Part shown: piece after piece, positions 16,597-25,977 of the stretch
Position numbering within the stretch: the first letter of the stretch is position 1
Layout of the letters: every line of letters starts with the position of its first letter
Assembly (NCBI GenBank): GCA_002725315.1
Contig: PBOL01000044.1
Span: 1 to 43,799, forward strand
DNA: 43,799 nucleotides
Source: Methanobacteriota archaeon
Lineage (GTDB): Archaea > Thermoplasmatota > Poseidoniia > Poseidoniales > Thalassarchaeaceae
Reading direction: 5' to 3'
Program-made: the position numbers and the translations under genes
Notes under the pieces: model-generated
Seen by the model: only the letters and a program-made list of their open reading frames with translations
Database searches by the model: none
What the model was told of the DNA's origin: nothing

Positions 16597-17457
16597 TCAG
16601 TCTCCGATCACGGCTATCCTAGTACGTAGTTGGGCAAGTCTGCTATTGTAGTGTCCGAACGCGAACGAGAGTAGCTCGGTCAGGTGTATCACCGGAATGT
16701 TCGTCGAAAGGCCCGTGGACCTGCTCGCCTTTCCTTGGTACACATCAAGGACAGTATGCGAAAGAGTGCAAGCGCTGACGATCATCTCGGCTCCCTCCGA
16801 CTTAGCGTCTGAAATCGCGGCGGCCGTCTGTGACAAGACCGTGGGCTCCTCCGAGAAGAGTCCGGGTACGCCTACGCTCTGTGTCCTGCTGGCCCACTGA
16901 ACCGGTTCCCCTCCCAATGCGGAGATCAACTGCTCGAGATACTGCGGGTCGTAGACATCGTCTTCCCCGCATGCACCCGGTTGCTGAATGTTGGGGCCAT
17001 AGAATCCGGCTATTCGGAAATCTAGGGGGTTGCGGAGCTTGGTCTCGACCTTGTCGAGCCCAATCTCGTCGACGATCACGTGGAGGAGGTGCTGTATCCG
17101 CACCTCGCCAGTCAGGGATAGGCCGGAGGTCCTTCCTAGGATGTCATTGGTCTTGGCAAGGAGCAAGGGGTCGTCCCTAAGGCGGGACAGGTCCTCGTGT
17201 AGGGTTCCGGCAGTAGTGGCGCATGGAGTGATGATGTCCATCCCCATTGACTCGGCCATTGCCATCGTTCTCGCATTCAGCGTGATCTGAAGGACGTCGT
17301 TGGCCTGCCTGATTATACCTGCCCCGCAGCTTGTTGCCCCCTCCAGGGGATGGAGTTCTATTCCAAGGGTTCTGGATGCCGGGATCATTGTGTCGGCAAC
17401 CTCTGGCGCGCTGCTGTGAGCAACGTTCCCAGGATGATATGCAAACTTCAGCGCCAT
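16597..17457 (-). CDS. HdrB/SdhE-like CCG-domain protein lacking most cluster cysteines
   Basis: 286 residues with the two-repeat layout of CCG proteins (HdrB, SdhE, the C-terminal half of TfrB, GlpC/LutA), which normally bind unusual 4Fe-4S clusters through CxnCCxnCxxC in each repeat. The framework is clear: FAYHPGNVAHSS (usually YYPGC), ATSCGAG (CCGA), IITPCATT (CxxC), then GFYGPN (HYGCH), RTQSVGVPG (CCG) and VSACTLSHTVLD (CPLCHxxLD). Of ten expected ligands only Cys44, Cys79 and Cys230 remain; Cys163 is the only other cysteine. An intact cluster is therefore unlikely. The ATG shares one base with the stop of the upstream gene (TAATG), so the two are coupled and probably form a complex. Annotation pipelines may call this heterodisulfide reductase subunit B; that activity is not supported. 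Confidence 0.82.
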   Translation of the reverse strand: MALKFAYHPGNVAHSSAPEVADTMIPASRTLGIELHPLEGATSCGAGIIRQANDVLQITLNARTMAMAESMGMDIITPCATTAGTLHEDLSRLRDDPLLLAKTNDILGRTSGLSLTGEVRIQHLLHVIVDEIGLDKVETKLRNPLDFRIAGFYGPNIQQPGACGEDDVYDPQYLEQLISALGGEPVQWASRTQSVGVPGLFSEEPTVLSQTAAAISDAKSEGAEMIVSACTLSHTVLDVYQGKASRSTGLSTNIPVIHLTELLSFAFGHYNSRLAQLRTRIAVIGD

Positions 17458-19433
17458 TAGAATCGACCATCCAGCTCGTTGAAAATTGCCACTACCTCGT
17501 GGTGCTTGTCCACGGATGAGTTGAACTGTTTTGGCATCTTTCCAATTCCCGCAGGTGGGGCGACCATCCCCAGCATGCCGTTGAACATGTTGCCGCCCGT
17601 CCTTGTGAAGCCCAGGACCATTCTCGCTGTGACTCCAGAAATAAGGTTCCCAATAAGGCCGGCAGGGCCGAGAACCTGCCTGTAAATCACAGTGTCATTC
17701 ACCTTGCCACTGCTCTTCACCGTCCAAGCGTACCACCAGACGTGCTTTCCATGCCGCCCATTGAATGCGTCTTTGGTCAGGGCAGAGTTTCGAGCATCGA
17801 GGAGCGCGGCCGAAACGGCTGGTGGATTAGAGGTCTGACGCCTTATAGGTGCTAGGTCAGTCTCGGCCTTGATGCCATTTCTGGAGCCGATCAGCGCATC
17901 GATAGAGGCTTGCTTGGAGGGTGCCGTGCGTGGATCAATTCGCCGGGACCAAGACCTCGCAAGGACTGCGGGGCCCAAGTATCCGTTGGCATGTGGGACG
18001 GCGTCTGAGCTAGCATGAAGCAGGTTCTGACTCTGGAAGTTGCAAATTGAGTGGAGATGAGCGGAAACATTGGGATCCATCGTGCCAATGGGGCCCTGGG
18101 GAGTATCGGAGCCCTCCCTGGTGGCTGTCATCATCCATGGCTCGCTTGACTCGCGCTTTCTCTCTAGGGACCATGGATCGATAGCGAGATCCCTGATCAC
18201 ATCGAAACCGGGTAGTGGCTCTATCCTAAGAGATACTGAGCCGTTTCTCAGAGGTGCCACAGCGTCTACACGGGTGAGTCCCGGAAGGACCAATCTTCCG
18301 TTTACCGAGACTGCTGTGTTCGGATCCCCTGGAGTGCCGTCTCGGAATGTCAGTGAACCATCCTGGGAGTCCTTCAGGGCCCTGAGTGCGGACAGCAGCG
18401 ACATGTGACCAGGAAGGGCGCAAATCCAAGTGTCGGTTCCCGTGCTCTCCGACGTAGGGTCGTATCTGAATACAGTCATCTCGACCTGGATGGGTTCGGA
18501 TACGACCTTGGGTAGAGAGAAGCCGTCTTCGCCATCTGCTCCAGAATCGCCGCCACTGGCGTAATTCTTGATAGCTTCAACCATGTCCTCGTGGAAGGTT
18601 CCCGTATCGTCAACTGCAGCGAGGGCGGGTAGTGCCTCCATTGTCCACTCCGCGGCAGGAGCGTCATAATCGACGTCGCAGTCGACCCTAGGGACCACGC
18701 GCGTGGCTCCTAGCGCCTCGAAGCGCCCATCCCAATCCTTCCCGGACTCGCAGAAGAACTCGTAACTGGTGTCCCCTAGAGCGCAAACCGAGAAGTGCAC
18801 ACCATCGAGCCTGGAGGCCGAGTCAGAGTTTGCAAACTGCCAGAGGTCCTCTGCGTTGTCAGGCATTTCGCCCTCGCCCCAGGTGGAGCAAACAATCAGG
18901 ACCCTCTTCTTCGCGGATAGGGAGTTGAAGTCGAAGCCGTCCATGTCGTGCACGGTTCCCTCGAGGCCGAATGCCTTGGCCTGCTTCGAAATCTTCGCTG
19001 CGAGGCCCTCGGAGTTTCCGGACTGAGAGCCGAATAGAATGTCGAGGGTGCGATCCCCGGATGATAGGAGGTCATCGAGGCCCTCGGCTGGAGCCGACGC
19101 CTCGGCTTGGGCCTCGGGTTCTTCGGGAGTAGCCTCCTGTGCCTCTGGCTCGATAGCCGGAGATGCTTCTGCCTCACCCGAGGAAGCCTCTACGACTATT
19201 ATTACGTCTACTGGGCAGGCATCGGCAGCATCGTAGATGTCATCCTCTAGTGACTCGATTACTGCGGGCTTGAGTCCGGCCTTGCCGTCATTCCTGTCGA
19301 ATCCGCCATCCAATCTTGCGTCCGGCTTGATGAAGCAGGTGTCGTCAGTTACCTCGAAGACATCGGGGGCTGCCTCCTCGCAGGCATCGCAAGTGATGCA
19401 CCCCTCTTCGATGAAGACGCTGATGATTGACAT
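17457..19433 (-). CDS. ferredoxin-flavodoxin-SdhB-like fusion with cysteine-less SdhB part
   Basis: 658 residues in four parts. Residues 1-80 are a single-cluster ferredoxin with Cys12, Cys15, Cys18 and Cys73-Pro. An Ala/Glu/Pro linker covers 82-120. Residues 128-275 are a flavodoxin of the sulfite reductase/CYPOR type: phosphate loop GSQSGNSE (135-142), STWGEGEMPDNA (183-194) and LGDTSYEFFC (219-228). Residues 315-560 follow SdhB/FrdB: VEMTVFRYDP, LKDSQDGSLTFR, VNGRLVL, IEPLPGFDVIRDLAID, then YLGPAVLARSWSRRIDPRT. At every place where SdhB has its 2Fe-2S, 4Fe-4S and 3Fe-4S cysteines other residues stand (for example DGTPGDPNTAV after FR). The last 100 residues are unassigned. The ATG at 19433 follows AAAGGAG at eight bases, and a TATA-like GTTATACG lies about 33 bases upstream. 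The function is unknown; electron transfer through the ferredoxin and flavin parts is the likely core. Confidence 0.85.
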   Translation of the reverse strand: MSIISVFIEEGCITCDACEEAAPDVFEVTDDTCFIKPDARLDGGFDRNDGKAGLKPAVIESLEDDIYDAADACPVDVIIVVEASSGEAEASPAIEPEAQEATPEEPEAQAEASAPAEGLDDLLSSGDRTLDILFGSQSGNSEGLAAKISKQAKAFGLEGTVHDMDGFDFNSLSAKKRVLIVCSTWGEGEMPDNAEDLWQFANSDSASRLDGVHFSVCALGDTSYEFFCESGKDWDGRFEALGATRVVPRVDCDVDYDAPAAEWTMEALPALAAVDDTGTFHEDMVEAIKNYASGGDSGADGEDGFSLPKVVSEPIQVEMTVFRYDPTSESTGTDTWICALPGHMSLLSALRALKDSQDGSLTFRDGTPGDPNTAVSVNGRLVLPGLTRVDAVAPLRNGSVSLRIEPLPGFDVIRDLAIDPWSLERKRESSEPWMMTATREGSDTPQGPIGTMDPNVSAHLHSICNFQSQNLLHASSDAVPHANGYLGPAVLARSWSRRIDPRTAPSKQASIDALIGSRNGIKAETDLAPIRRQTSNPPAVSAALLDARNSALTKDAFNGRHGKHVWWYAWTVKSSGKVNDTVIYRQVLGPAGLIGNLISGVTARMVLGFTRTGGNMFNGMLGMVAPPAGIGKMPKQFNSSVDKHHEVVAIFNELDGRF

Positions 19434-21221: not shown

Positions 21222-24200
21222 CTATTCCTTCTGCGAGTCAAGCCATTGCTGCCCATAGTGCTGCCACTGTTCCATTGTCCATCCCTCGGGGAGTCCGGAC
21301 TCGGGCAGGGGCGGTCCCAGGGCAGCATCATGATGTTCAGCGGGTTGTTCTTGGGGAGTCGGGGAAGAGGGAGGAGGTGGTTGCTCGAACAGCTCTTTGG
21401 AGCCACCATACATCGAGTTGGCAATATCGTCTGCAGATGGAAGCGGGGACTCAGAGGCCTTGCTGCCGTCCCATCCCTCAACCGTCATCCTGTAGTCGTC
21501 TAGAGAAGAGAACTCCTCGAGTGGGGCCCTTGCATCCCTAAAGACTCTGAACGCTGCTAGGAGGACTACGCTCATCACTGCGAGACCAGCTGCAATCACC
21601 AGGTAGTTGGCCCCCTTCCACGCAACCTCCTCGACATCGGTCCCCTCGGGAGCGGGATCGGGTTTGAATAGGGTTATCTCCGTTGTCTTTGATGTCGTAT
21701 CAAGATCGCTAATGATGACCAGAGTGATGCTGATCTGTTCTTGGTTGGCAGCGAGATTTTCGAGATGCTCATCCCTAACGTCGATATGGATAGTGACGTT
21801 CCTCTGCTCGCCGGCCTGCAAAACGAAATCACGATCTTCCTCGGCCACCCTAGCATCGTAAATCTTCCACTGCACGTATTCAACTTCTGTCCTGATCTGC
21901 TGTTCTAGCTCTGGGTGAGCGCTCCTGATTGGCATAACTATCACGTAGTCGTCACCCGACTCCCTGATCTCAATTGCATTTGATGCGGATGAGGCTGGGT
22001 AAACCAGCAGGTACCCCACCGTGCCAACATCGAACCTAGCCTCGCCCTCGCTGTAGACACCTGCCGCTACGCTTGTGGCCTTCAGGTTGATCGTCCTAGC
22101 GCCATCGACTCCGGAAGAGAAGTTGTAACTGACGCTTAGGTTGTACGAAGAGCCCGGTGCAATGACGGGGGTCCTGAACTGGTTTTTCCCCTCCACTTTG
22201 GCGGTGACATCGGACGGGAAGTAAAGTTCAATGTCGTACGAGTCATCCATGTTGCCGTCGTTCCAAATCTCCCACTTGAGGGTTCGAGGATCAGTCCCTG
22301 CTGCGAAAACCTCGTCCGAGAGGTCGATGTCCTCTACCTCGACCATGTAAGTCTCGGGCACGGTCAGATAGAAGTTTGACATCGACTGGTAACTTGGATC
22401 GGATTGACTGGTAGCGACAATCGAGACTCGATATGTGCCGTTGAAAACACCCTTTGGCATTGGAAGTATGAGTGAGAGGGTGGTCTGGCCGCCGTTCTCT
22501 TCCAGGGTGACTGTGTGGGAGCTGATGTCGGCTAGTAGGCGCCAATTGTCCGTGTCTACCCTGACATCGAAGGTCTCCTCGGTATTTCCGTAATTGAAAA
22601 AGAACACCTGTACTATGTTCTGCTCGCCGTTTGCTGGAGCCATCATTGCATTCCTGACCGGAGCAATAGCGAGATCATGATAGACGGGTACTTCGATGAA
22701 TACTTTCGAAGAGGCCAGGTAAGTGTTAGGCAACCTTGGGTTGGCCTTAAGATCAAGCTCATACAAGCCTGGCGCTAGGCCCTCGGGAATGGACACCCTC
22801 GCATTTAGAGAAATCTCCTCGACGGGGGTCATGTTGATCATAGTCACCTCCTCGCCGGACAAATCGTACCACTTCAGATTCTCAGCGGCAGATAGTTGAG
22901 TAGTTCCTGGGAAGGTTCCTCCAAGGTTCCAAGATGAGTACTGGTTACCTGTGTTCTTCAGATCCATCGTGATAGTTGCAGTACCCCCTGGCAAAATGGT
23001 TGCCGCTGGATTGGCGAGAGTCTTTTGTTTCAGGGTCATCCTGTAGGTGGACTGGACGCTGACTGGGAGTTCGACATAGTACTTGATCCCTGAACCGTCA
23101 CCTGATTTGTTCACAATTCCGTCATTTATCCAGGTATACCAAAAGAGGTCTTGGACGGGTGCCCCGTCAGGAATTGAAAGGTTGAACCATGTGTCGGTGT
23201 AAGTCCTGGCCTTGACGACTGTTGACTTGACGAAGTTATCATGATCAATAGGGTTATTGGAGTCGATTCTCAAGGGGTAACCCGACATCCACGACCAGTT
23301 CGATACCTCCGTGTAATACCAAAGAGTCGTGTCTACGTATCCCCTGTTGAAAATGTTGCAGTGTAGGGAAGGGGGATCGGGGTCCGCTGCCTCCACAAGT
23401 ACTGTGTTACCCCCCTCCGATTCGGGATCGTATTCCATTGTACCTCCAAAATTGTCGGGGAATGTGCATCGCGCGTCAAGAGTGTACTCTTCACCCCTCT
23501 CTATTGCAAAAATGATGAATGAGTCAAGGTGGATCCCCTCGGAGGCAAATGAAGAGTCGGACCTGAATAGGAACGAAGTTGTGAATCCCTCGTTAGGATG
23601 AAGCCCGGTGGCATTCCAGACAAGTCTTGTCCATTCTCCCTCGGACGAAGATATGTTTTGGGATGAGTAGTTCAGATACTCCACGTTCCCGGCGCTGCCT
23701 GAGTCGGTCTCAAGCAGGATTGTGTCACCCTCGGCCATCTCGCCCCAAGCGTCTGTAGCGATTTGAACGGAATACAGCAAAGGAGCATTGAGTTTCACCA
23801 GACACAGGTTTGCACCATGTATTGACGAGACCGTGGAATCGTGCTCCCCGTATCCGAGGCCATGCTCGTATCCATTACCCCAGACCCCGTCGGCACACCC
23901 ATCCTGGCTGTTGATCCTCTGCCATGCCCATCGAAGCCTGTCAAACCTGTTCGAGGCATATTGGTCATTAGCCCCAGAAACCTTCCAGTGCCACTCTCCT
24001 GTTGCACTGGAGTCGTTCTCCATCCTCCATGTACCAGTTGGGAAGTCGGTGTCTGCCTGATATCCATCAGAGTATCCAGCAGCATACCAAGTCGGATATC
24101 CATAGGGGACAGCAGTGTTCGAGCAATATTTCCCTTCGAAGGCCTCGTCATTACAGAATCCATTCTCCATGGGATCGTACCACAGGGCAATCGGGACGTC

Positions 24201-24725
24201 CCTGTCGAGTTGATCGTTTGTATCATCGCCGTCTATGCCAATACCGGCAGAAACAGCCCCCCTGAATGTAACGCCGCCACCTAGCCAACCGTCATCGGAC
24301 AGGGTACTGTGGGCAATTGAAGGAGTCCAAACGAATGGTACCCTGATTGATTGGCCGGCGGCTAGGGTGATGTTGAAGGTCCATTCGTAGATTACAATCC
24401 CAATGGGATGCCAGATCTCAAGTTTGGCATCGGCGGTAATTGGAGATGGGTCTACTCCCTTCTGGTTGAAGGTTACGTTAATCTGAATAGTTTCGCTCTT
24501 AGTCATGTACTCGATAGTAGATGCGTCCGGCTGAACCCATGTCCTAGGAGAAAGCGTGCTGTTACCTACCTCAATTCCCGTCACTTCGAAGTCGACTGGG
24601 TTGTTCCTAGGAGCGACTTCAGAGATTTCCGCCGAGTCAACTGAGAGGTGCAGTGGAGCATGCGAGAAGCTAACAGCGACAATCAGCGAGGAGAGAAGCA
24701 GTGCGCGAAATGTTCCCATGAGCAT
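21222..24725 (-). CDS. large membrane-anchored surface protein, type I topology
   Basis: 1167 residues. An N-terminal signal sequence (GTFRALLLSSLIVAVSFSHA) is followed by about 1000 extracellular residues of beta-sandwich character, with many N-glycosylation-type NxS/T sites. The middle resembles repeated CARDB/NEW3-like modules (LKNTGNQYSSWNLG, FFNYGNTEETFDVRVD, EIWNDGNMDDSYDIELYFP), which bind or space domains in secreted archaeal proteins. One membrane helix near residues 1045-1063 (NYLVIAAGLAVMSVVLLAAF) precedes a cytoplasmic tail of about 100 residues with a PPPPSSP stretch and the end LPEGWTMEQWQHYGQQWL. The cysteine-containing segment at 190-320 may be a ligand-binding or jelly-roll domain. 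The ATG at 24725 was chosen over a TTG before it; another ATG at 24719 is possible. No enzymatic motif was recognised. Confidence 0.85.
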   Translation of the reverse strand: MLMGTFRALLLSSLIVAVSFSHAPLHLSVDSAEISEVAPRNNPVDFEVTGIEVGNSTLSPRTWVQPDASTIEYMTKSETIQINVTFNQKGVDPSPITADAKLEIWHPIGIVIYEWTFNITLAAGQSIRVPFVWTPSIAHSTLSDDGWLGGGVTFRGAVSAGIGIDGDDTNDQLDRDVPIALWYDPMENGFCNDEAFEGKYCSNTAVPYGYPTWYAAGYSDGYQADTDFPTGTWRMENDSSATGEWHWKVSGANDQYASNRFDRLRWAWQRINSQDGCADGVWGNGYEHGLGYGEHDSTVSSIHGANLCLVKLNAPLLYSVQIATDAWGEMAEGDTILLETDSGSAGNVEYLNYSSQNISSSEGEWTRLVWNATGLHPNEGFTTSFLFRSDSSFASEGIHLDSFIIFAIERGEEYTLDARCTFPDNFGGTMEYDPESEGGNTVLVEAADPDPPSLHCNIFNRGYVDTTLWYYTEVSNWSWMSGYPLRIDSNNPIDHDNFVKSTVVKARTYTDTWFNLSIPDGAPVQDLFWYTWINDGIVNKSGDGSGIKYYVELPVSVQSTYRMTLKQKTLANPAATILPGGTATITMDLKNTGNQYSSWNLGGTFPGTTQLSAAENLKWYDLSGEEVTMINMTPVEEISLNARVSIPEGLAPGLYELDLKANPRLPNTYLASSKVFIEVPVYHDLAIAPVRNAMMAPANGEQNIVQVFFFNYGNTEETFDVRVDTDNWRLLADISSHTVTLEENGGQTTLSLILPMPKGVFNGTYRVSIVATSQSDPSYQSMSNFYLTVPETYMVEVEDIDLSDEVFAAGTDPRTLKWEIWNDGNMDDSYDIELYFPSDVTAKVEGKNQFRTPVIAPGSSYNLSVSYNFSSGVDGARTINLKATSVAAGVYSEGEARFDVGTVGYLLVYPASSASNAIEIRESGDDYVIVMPIRSAHPELEQQIRTEVEYVQWKIYDARVAEEDRDFVLQAGEQRNVTIHIDVRDEHLENLAANQEQISITLVIISDLDTTSKTTEITLFKPDPAPEGTDVEEVAWKGANYLVIAAGLAVMSVVLLAAFRVFRDARAPLEEFSSLDDYRMTVEGWDGSKASESPLPSADDIANSMYGGSKELFEQPPPPSSPTPQEQPAEHHDAALGPPLPESGLPEGWTMEQWQHYGQQWLDSQKE

Positions 24726-24861
24726 CAAATTGCGAAATTCATTTGTGTAAGAAGGTTGGGGAGTAAAGTTCGGTGAATTGGTGACGCTCGGAACTCGGAT
24801 AGCAGTCTGAGAAGGGGGGACTGGGGTTCTTCGACGATGAAGGCCTTATGGTACTAGTCAG
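24726..24861. promoter_or_regulatory. divergent promoter region
   Basis: 136 bases between the surface protein (minus) and the membrane protein (plus). I see no coding frame. On the minus strand there is no clear ribosome binding site before the ATG at 24725, consistent with a leaderless transcript. No clear TATA box was identified on either strand. Confidence 0.4.
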
Positions 24862-25977
24862 GTGCGTGACGCTGTGGTTGACCGCTCCCTATTGCTCAAG
24901 AGGTTGCTACTCGTTCTGATGGTTGTTGGTCAGGTCACTCTGGCCCCAATTGTACTTTTCTCGTTGACCTACTTGCCGGAAATAAACTACGAAGAGGCAT
25001 CAATAGGACTTCGGACACACCTAATCTACTGGGTGGTAATTGCAGGTATTTCGTATGGCATGGTCTCGATCGTTCTAGCCCTGGTTGTTGGTGGTTTCAG
25101 GCCGTTTTTCATTGCAAATCAAGGGGGCTTGATTCCATTCTTAAGATTGAGTCCCAGAAGGGGCGACCCAGAATTGGTCGATAGGGCAAGACTCGCCCTC
25201 CAGAATAGCCCGTATGGGAGGATGGCCCAACTTGTCAATATCAAGACCAAGGGGGAGGAGCATGAAATTTTGGCTATTCACGGTGGACTCCAGTTGTTGG
25301 CCGTCCCTATGCAGGTGATACTGATTGCCGTCCCGTTGGCAATAATGGAATGGGTCCCAGATGAGATGGTCAGAGATGGGAGAGCATTCGACTTGGGAAT
25401 GGCCGGCTACATAGTCGCATTGTGGATTGCAGTGAGGATTCACCCCGTTGTTTCGTGGCAACTCGTGGGAATTGCAGCCATGTTCAGAAATGTTGTGTGG
25501 AGGGTCTCTAAGCTTTCGTGGATCCTACCCATATTCCTTTACTGGCTAGTTGCAAGGCTGGTACTGACCGCTTCTCTGAACTGGTTGGAAATTGACTATG
25601 CGCAATGGCATGAGATGCAGTTAGAGAAGATTATTCTGCAGGCGGTTGCACCTGAGGCGGAAATACCCCCTACAGCCATTCTAGACTACATTGTTGCCAT
25701 TTCAGTCCTCCCTATGGCCACATTCACAACCATTTCAGTACTGGGGGGTTCGCAGAATATGCCGGAATGGATGTTTGCACAAGATAGCGGGCTCGAGTCT
25801 CTAAGAGGCGGAGAGCTGAAGGAGTCCTTTGAAGATTCCAACTCTGAAGAGTTCTCAGAAGCGGGGCCCGAACTGGATGAGTCGGGTGATGTTGGCGAAA
25901 ATGAGGAGCGAATAACTGAATCTGAGAGCAGGATGATTGACATCCCGTTCAGCCTTTTTGATGATGACCAAACCTAA
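24862..25977 (+). CDS. multi-pass membrane protein with acidic C-terminal tail, unknown function
   Basis: 371 residues with about six hydrophobic segments (near 13-36, 50-76, 135-156, 174-196, 212-236 and 270-290). Between segments 2 and 3 is a hydrophilic loop with RPFFIANQGGLIPFLRLSPRRGDPELVDRAR. The arrangement vaguely recalls Yip1-type membrane proteins, but I cannot support the assignment. The last 70 residues are rich in Ser, Glu and Asp and should be cytoplasmic or disordered. Start is a GTG at 24862; a stop lies just upstream in the same frame. It diverges from the large surface protein and overlaps the stop of the mini membrane protein at 25974. Confidence 0.75.
   Translation: MRDAVVDRSLLLKRLLLVLMVVGQVTLAPIVLFSLTYLPEINYEEASIGLRTHLIYWVVIAGISYGMVSIVLALVVGGFRPFFIANQGGLIPFLRLSPRRGDPELVDRARLALQNSPYGRMAQLVNIKTKGEEHEILAIHGGLQLLAVPMQVILIAVPLAIMEWVPDEMVRDGRAFDLGMAGYIVALWIAVRIHPVVSWQLVGIAAMFRNVVWRVSKLSWILPIFLYWLVARLVLTASLNWLEIDYAQWHEMQLEKIILQAVAPEAEIPPTAILDYIVAISVLPMATFTTISVLGGSQNMPEWMFAQDSGLESLRGGELKESFEDSNSEEFSEAGPELDESGDVGENEERITESESRMIDIPFSLFDDDQT

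Follow-up and report, generated by a model that had tools for sequence, protein, structure and literature searches.

A gene pair of Poseidoniales archaea with support for descent from the SdhB and SdhE subunits of E-type complex II and with flavodoxin and ferredoxin domains attached

RESULTS

A core gene pair of Marine Group II

The archaea of Marine Group II (Poseidoniales), which are globally abundant and without cultured isolates (PMC6336850), carry as a core feature a pair of adjacent genes whose descent from SdhB and SdhE of the archaeal E-type complex II (sdhABE) is supported by sequence, tree, C-terminal tail, and gene order (synteny). The mechanism itself we infer, and we give about an even chance to the combined reading, in which such descent goes together with an iron-sparing relay that would carry electrons from NADPH to flavodoxin and ferredoxin on a dead complex II scaffold.

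Within the window, by which we mean the whole 43,799-nucleotide stretch of DNA that was analyzed, both genes lie on the minus strand and have base 17457 in common, confirming the adjacent, one-base-overlapping SdhB-like and HdrB-like genes described in the earlier note. Gene 1 (SdhB', 17457..19433, stop codon included) encodes a ferredoxin-flavodoxin-SdhB-like protein of 658 aa and gene 2 (HdrB'/SdhE', 16597..17457) an HdrB/SdhE-like protein of 286 aa. The gene 1 protein consists of (i) a single-cluster [4Fe-4S]-type ferredoxin domain (residues 1-82, 19188..19433; Fer4_13 at 9-79, 6e-8) with an intact CxxCxxC...CP motif, (ii) a CysJ-type FMN flavodoxin domain (residues 125-275, 18609..19061; Flavodoxin_1 at 132-256, 1.2e-33) with intact FMN-loop motifs, (iii) an SdhB core (residues 312-540, 17814..18500) made up of a degenerate Fer2_3 domain (319-419, 1.2e-7) and a helical Fe-S domain, with 0 of 12 cluster Cys, and (iv) a conserved C-terminal tail (residues 541-658, 17460..17813) that is homologous, apart from an insertion, to the SdhB tail of E-type complex II. 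NCBIfam SdhB models matched this protein over residues ~312-521, and in PDB profile searches, the SdhB-like region matched SdhB chains at 1e-14 and the gene 2 protein matched HdrB chains at 4e-50. Nearly the whole length of the 286-aa protein was covered by the models for HdrB (TIGR03288, 7e-39) and SdhE (NF042965, 6e-32), both matches being under the curated cut-off. The flavodoxin domain matched the cysJ model at positions 58-205 (5.7e-45) and is 39% identical to the FMN domain of Escherichia coli CysJ (1ykg); judged by its sequence, it is the FMN half of CysJ.

AlphaFold models of the 658-aa protein (mean pLDDT of 58) and of a natural fusion of both genes were good for the flavodoxin and HdrB' parts and poor for the SdhB' core, so that no SdhB'/HdrB' interface can be read from them. 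The HdrB' part of the modeled fusion resembles HdrB (5odc_B) with a target TM of 0.86. The fusion itself (G022:C27, L173:3022-5982) comes from a Red Sea MAG, where both genes are joined in frame without ~30 residues of the SdhB' end; it is one observation and may be an assembly fault. Two genes upstream of the pair, the window encodes a 1168-aa protein (21222-24728, minus strand) with weak CARDB/MG2-like matches only, and a large ORF similar to it occupies the same place in both Poseidoniales families. A 371-aa protein without a Pfam match is encoded on the plus strand (24862-25977), with similar-sized ORFs nearby in relatives.

Distribution and selection

The gene 1 protein was matched in 54 of 60 relatives, a count in which a few low-completeness genomes gave flavodoxin-sized matches only, and in all 22 of those that are at least 90% complete. 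When genomes were drawn from the whole phylum, nearly all of those in the two Poseidoniales families had the SdhB' core, as against none of eight genomes of the sister order, and elsewhere there were just weaker SdhB matches. Public genomes contained 378 matching stretches, and the window belongs to a Poseidoniales genome, its closest relatives with a name being MAGs of Thalassarchaeaceae; a near-full-length first ORF was present in 76 of the 80 loci fetched and a near-full-length, separate second ORF in 75, and the order of thermosome, pair, helicase, and ribosomal genes is conserved in both families.

Selection on the pair is strong, with dN/dS values of ~0.03-0.05. When the window was compared with the relative G004, the ratios were 0.04 for the ferredoxin, 0.026 for the flavodoxin, 0.037 for the SdhB core, 0.013 for the tail (the most constrained part), and 0.027 for HdrB', the linker alone being loose (0.33); the ratios are rough, with synonymous sites near saturation, and those of the pair are still far below 1. 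Since the pair is conserved across the matching stretches and its dN/dS is this low, chance or decay is excluded. The earlier note had named the lack of co-conservation and relaxed selection as the outcomes that would tell against a working pair, and what we found was co-conservation at a conserved locus and strong constraint.

Descent from E-type complex II

The SdhB and SdhE homologs lie side by side as in E-type complex II (SdhABE), with the B-E gene order kept, and both the core and the tail of SdhB' align to E-type SdhB, the tail being common to the SdhB of family f6. In a tree that was built without the motif columns, HdrB' forms one clade (100/100), which groups with the SdhE of sdhABE operons from f6 and f27, two families of the same phylum (Thermoplasmatota), at 99/94. 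The sister position of the HdrB' clade to E-type SdhE and the alignment of the SdhB-like tail with that of E-type SdhB make the pair a derived form of SdhB-SdhE rather than a TfrB. The TfrB-like scaffold proposed in the earlier note is therefore replaced by the E-type SdhB and SdhE of other Thermoplasmatota as the nearest relatives; TfrB models themselves matched weakly (7e-4 and 0.05). In addition, Poseidoniales have a separate sdhCAB, with adjacent genes for a canonical SdhB and SdhA and a likely membrane subunit encoded upstream of them, and the old SdhB-SdhE pair would have been retained after respiration had passed to another SDH.

Stepwise loss of iron-sulfur ligands

Across 114 SdhB' orthologs, the 12 columns that hold Cys in related E-type SdhB contain only 3 Cys in 1368 cells, and two of these ligand columns now hold invariant replacements (Ser in 114/114 and Glu in 114/114). 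Among the 10 columns of HdrB, that of the fourth Cys in each half is still Cys in 113/113 orthologs, and that of the second Cys in half 2 is Ser in 113/113; the HdrB-like protein of the window has 3 of 10 CCG Cys left, in the pattern N-S-C-C-T / P-S-V-C-S. No ortholog has any of the three SdhB cluster sites or the second HdrB site left. Nine of 113 orthologs, which are deep lineages of both families, have a complete first CCG motif (G031, G229, and G299 in family f1; G044, G053, G049, G327, G381, and G255 in family f2), and none has a complete second one. Because of these nine, the term "cluster-free" describes the window pair and the larger part of the family, but not every member, and the parallel loss of clusters claimed in the earlier note stands for the window and fails for the family as a whole. 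As read from the alignments, cluster loss is stepwise and not a single parallel event.

How the first HdrB cluster was lost is read differently from the two proteins. In the HdrB' tree, all rows without the first motif group together (99/99) and the monophyly of each family is rejected (p 0.011 and 0.019), whereas the SdhB' tree splits by family (100/98). One clean loss does not reconcile these trees, which leaves either transfer or a loss that happened twice, with convergence. A single genus includes both states, the first HdrB motif being complete in G044 and G053 (L115 and L114) and lost in G360 (L103), a contrast that hints at transfer or recent loss.

Exchangeable ferredoxin and flavodoxin domains

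Among the 45 orthologs in the SdhB' tree, 29 have the ferredoxin-flavodoxin architecture, 14 have two flavodoxins, and 2 have one flavodoxin. The ferredoxin state changes ~7 times on this tree, the domain having been lost about seven times, often with a second flavodoxin in its place; wherever the domain is present, its Cys are intact. The ferredoxin is thus a replaceable part. Of the ferredoxin and flavodoxin additions described in the earlier note, both are present in the window protein, but the ferredoxin is not fixed in the family. Of the 16 genomes without the ferredoxin, 15 had further CysJ-like flavodoxins, as against 2 of the 29 with it (Fisher 6e-9, kinship ignored), these extra flavodoxins being taken from the match list of the gene 1 search in MAGs of uneven quality. 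The informative independent pairs all agree (5/5), with a sign test p of 0.0625, short of significance.

A stand-alone CysJ-type reductase

The other half of CysJ is encoded elsewhere. A stand-alone FAD/NADPH half (G000:C14:5473-6759; L246:3474-4760, minus strand) matched TIGR01931 at 3.5e-112, and such a CysJ-type half is present as a single copy in 57 of 60 relatives, including 22/22 near-complete ones, and stand-alone in most. It often adjoins a biotin-carboxylase-like gene. A sulfite reductase hemoprotein (NIR_SIR, PF01077) was found in 0 of 18 genomes, and sulfite reduction was rejected on this count.

Five genomes (G002, G032, G033, G034, and G054) encode a fusion of the reductase with a flavodoxin that is 47-57% identical to that of the window, the copy in G054 having a stop inside the flavodoxin part; SdhB' is known for four of these genomes, and its ferredoxin is missing in all four. 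The evidence supports, but does not prove, that the FAD/NADPH reductase serves the gene 1 flavodoxin. The reductase gene lies away from the pair in the genome, and the co-occurrence of the two is weak evidence, both being universal in the order. Compared with an SdhA-type flavoprotein, the stand-alone reductase is the better-supported partner of the pair.

DISCUSSION

Proposed mechanism

The evidence supports an origin of the pair as the B-E half (sdhB-sdhE) of an E-type complex II in the ancestor of Poseidoniales. SdhA was lost, as were all three SdhB clusters and the second cluster of HdrB type, and most lineages then lost the first HdrB-type cluster too. The SdhB part also gained an FMN domain of CysJ type and a [4Fe-4S] ferredoxin. 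The two cluster-free subunits may still form one complex that serves as a docking platform. NADPH, the presumed source, would give electrons to the stand-alone FAD/NADPH reductase of CysJ type, and this would pass them on to the FMN in the flavodoxin domain, which would convert two-electron to one-electron transfer and hand electrons to the attached ferredoxin or second flavodoxin and from there to a partner. The one-to-two-electron converter proposed in the earlier note remains plausible.

Flavins in place of Fe-S centers are best read as iron sparing, which may have been the driver of the change. Flavodoxin is described as replacing ferredoxin under iron limitation in marine phytoplankton (PMC10287166). 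Iron sparing gives no account of why the scaffold was retained at all. A bolder extension, a "flavo-complex II" in which the clusters of the respiratory B-E module were swapped stepwise for flavin domains, perhaps in more than one lineage, to give an electron hub driven by NADPH and present throughout Marine Group II, is put forward only tentatively.

Other explanations may be considered for the retention of the pair. The two halves of HdrB' have each kept one Cys in 113/113 orthologs, Cys79 (17221..17223, minus strand; where the former CxxC of half 1 began) and its pseudo-symmetric counterpart Cys230 (16768..16770, minus strand; half 2), despite the loss of most surrounding ligands in most rows. 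These could act as a redox dithiol, or as ligands of a different cofactor, at the place where HdrB splits a disulfide, with the flavodoxin feeding electrons to a cluster-free disulfide/thiol chemistry. The convergence of the halves on x-S-x-C-S/T (Ser in 113/113 in half 2 and 102/113 in half 1) and the low dN/dS of HdrB' (0.027) would agree with such a function; however, Cys79 still lies within a complete cluster motif in 9 orthologs, so that a free thiol pair is unlikely as the ancestral function, and we regard dithiol chemistry as unlikely overall. The emptied ligand positions could also be taken as the mark of a relic under relaxed selection, but this is refuted, to near certainty, by dN/dS values (~0.03-0.05) near that of the flavodoxin domain, by the invariant Ser and Glu (114/114) at the emptied positions, and by the presence of the pair in 22/22 near-complete relatives.

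Two further explanations look to an SdhA-like partner or to a structural or regulatory role, and we consider both quite improbable. The homology of the SdhB core, and ancestry in a complex whose SdhB binds SdhA, would suit the flavoprotein platform of the earlier note, here taken to dock an SdhA-like flavoprotein for fumarate reduction or succinate oxidation, the flavodoxin replacing the Fe-S wire. Yet there is one clear SdhA per genome, adjoining the canonical SdhB; the loci examined have no sdhA beside the pair; apart from this SdhA, the window genome has just one weaker relative among its PF00890 genes; and a second SdhA-like gene (550-590 aa, the size of an aspartate oxidase) is missing from the window-genus genomes searched, where the pair is kept. 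No dedicated SdhA partner is conserved, and the proposal of an SdhA-type partner found no support. Alternatively, the pair might be a structural or regulatory pseudo-subunit, for instance one that serves the canonical SDH, or a different respiratory complex, as an assembly factor or redox sensor, in line with a cluster-free paralog of respiratory subunits being kept in genomes with an intact SDH and lying next to a chaperonin gene. The intact FMN-loop motifs and, where the domain is present, the intact ferredoxin Cys argue instead for electron transfer, as in the NADPH-driven relay that we prefer.

No published description of the pair was found in the literature searched. Both modules and their pairing are already known from E-type complex II (PMC2680327); what is new is the cluster-free state with attached flavin carriers. 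A known respiratory module has here shed five cluster sites while its fold was kept and flavins were added, with intermediates surviving, and there are concrete candidate partners in the CysJ-type reductase encoded on its own and in the reductase-flavodoxin fusion of some genomes. If the flavo-complex II is real, its living intermediates (with one HdrB cluster site, or with a ferredoxin or a flavodoxin at the N terminus) would allow a direct test of how a redox machine evolves to spare iron.

Comparison with known systems

Gene 2 matches HdrB of heterodisulfide reductase (5odc, 8rvu, and 7bkb) over its whole length in sequence and fold, but HdrB has two non-cubane [4Fe-4S] clusters bound by 10 Cys, whereas the window protein holds 3 of these 10 Cys; hdrA and hdrC partners were not seen at the locus of the pair. 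TfrB likewise combines SdhB-like and HdrB-like modules, but as one protein that has its clusters and pairs with TfrA, whereas the pair here is encoded by two genes (one fused MAG copy aside) and has lost its ligands. An uncharacterized Helicobacter pylori protein of 514 aa (PDB 3KWL) is possibly another SdhB-HdrB two-module protein: compared by fold search only, it matched the model of the L173 fusion in Foldseek at 1.5e-13 over 618 alignment columns, with 15% identity and an RMSD of 19.5, that is, without global superposition.

The FMN domain of the pair and the FAD/NADPH half encoded elsewhere together amount to a CysJ, as in the diflavin reductases, but one that is split over two loci, with the FMN half fused to SdhB' and without a sulfite reductase hemoprotein in the 18 genomes searched. 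E-type complex II, as in archaeal sdhABE and the Wolinella methylmenaquinol:fumarate reductase (PMC2680327), agrees with the pair in its two modules, in their gene order, and in the SdhB tail. Its SdhB has ligands for a [2Fe-2S] and two [4Fe-4S] clusters (PMC2680327), its SdhE has the 10-Cys motif of two CCG, and its SdhA is encoded alongside, whereas the pair has no SdhA at its locus, almost no Cys at the SdhB ligand positions, none of the SdhB clusters, and at most one of the two CCG clusters, and carries a flavodoxin and a ferredoxin fused on.
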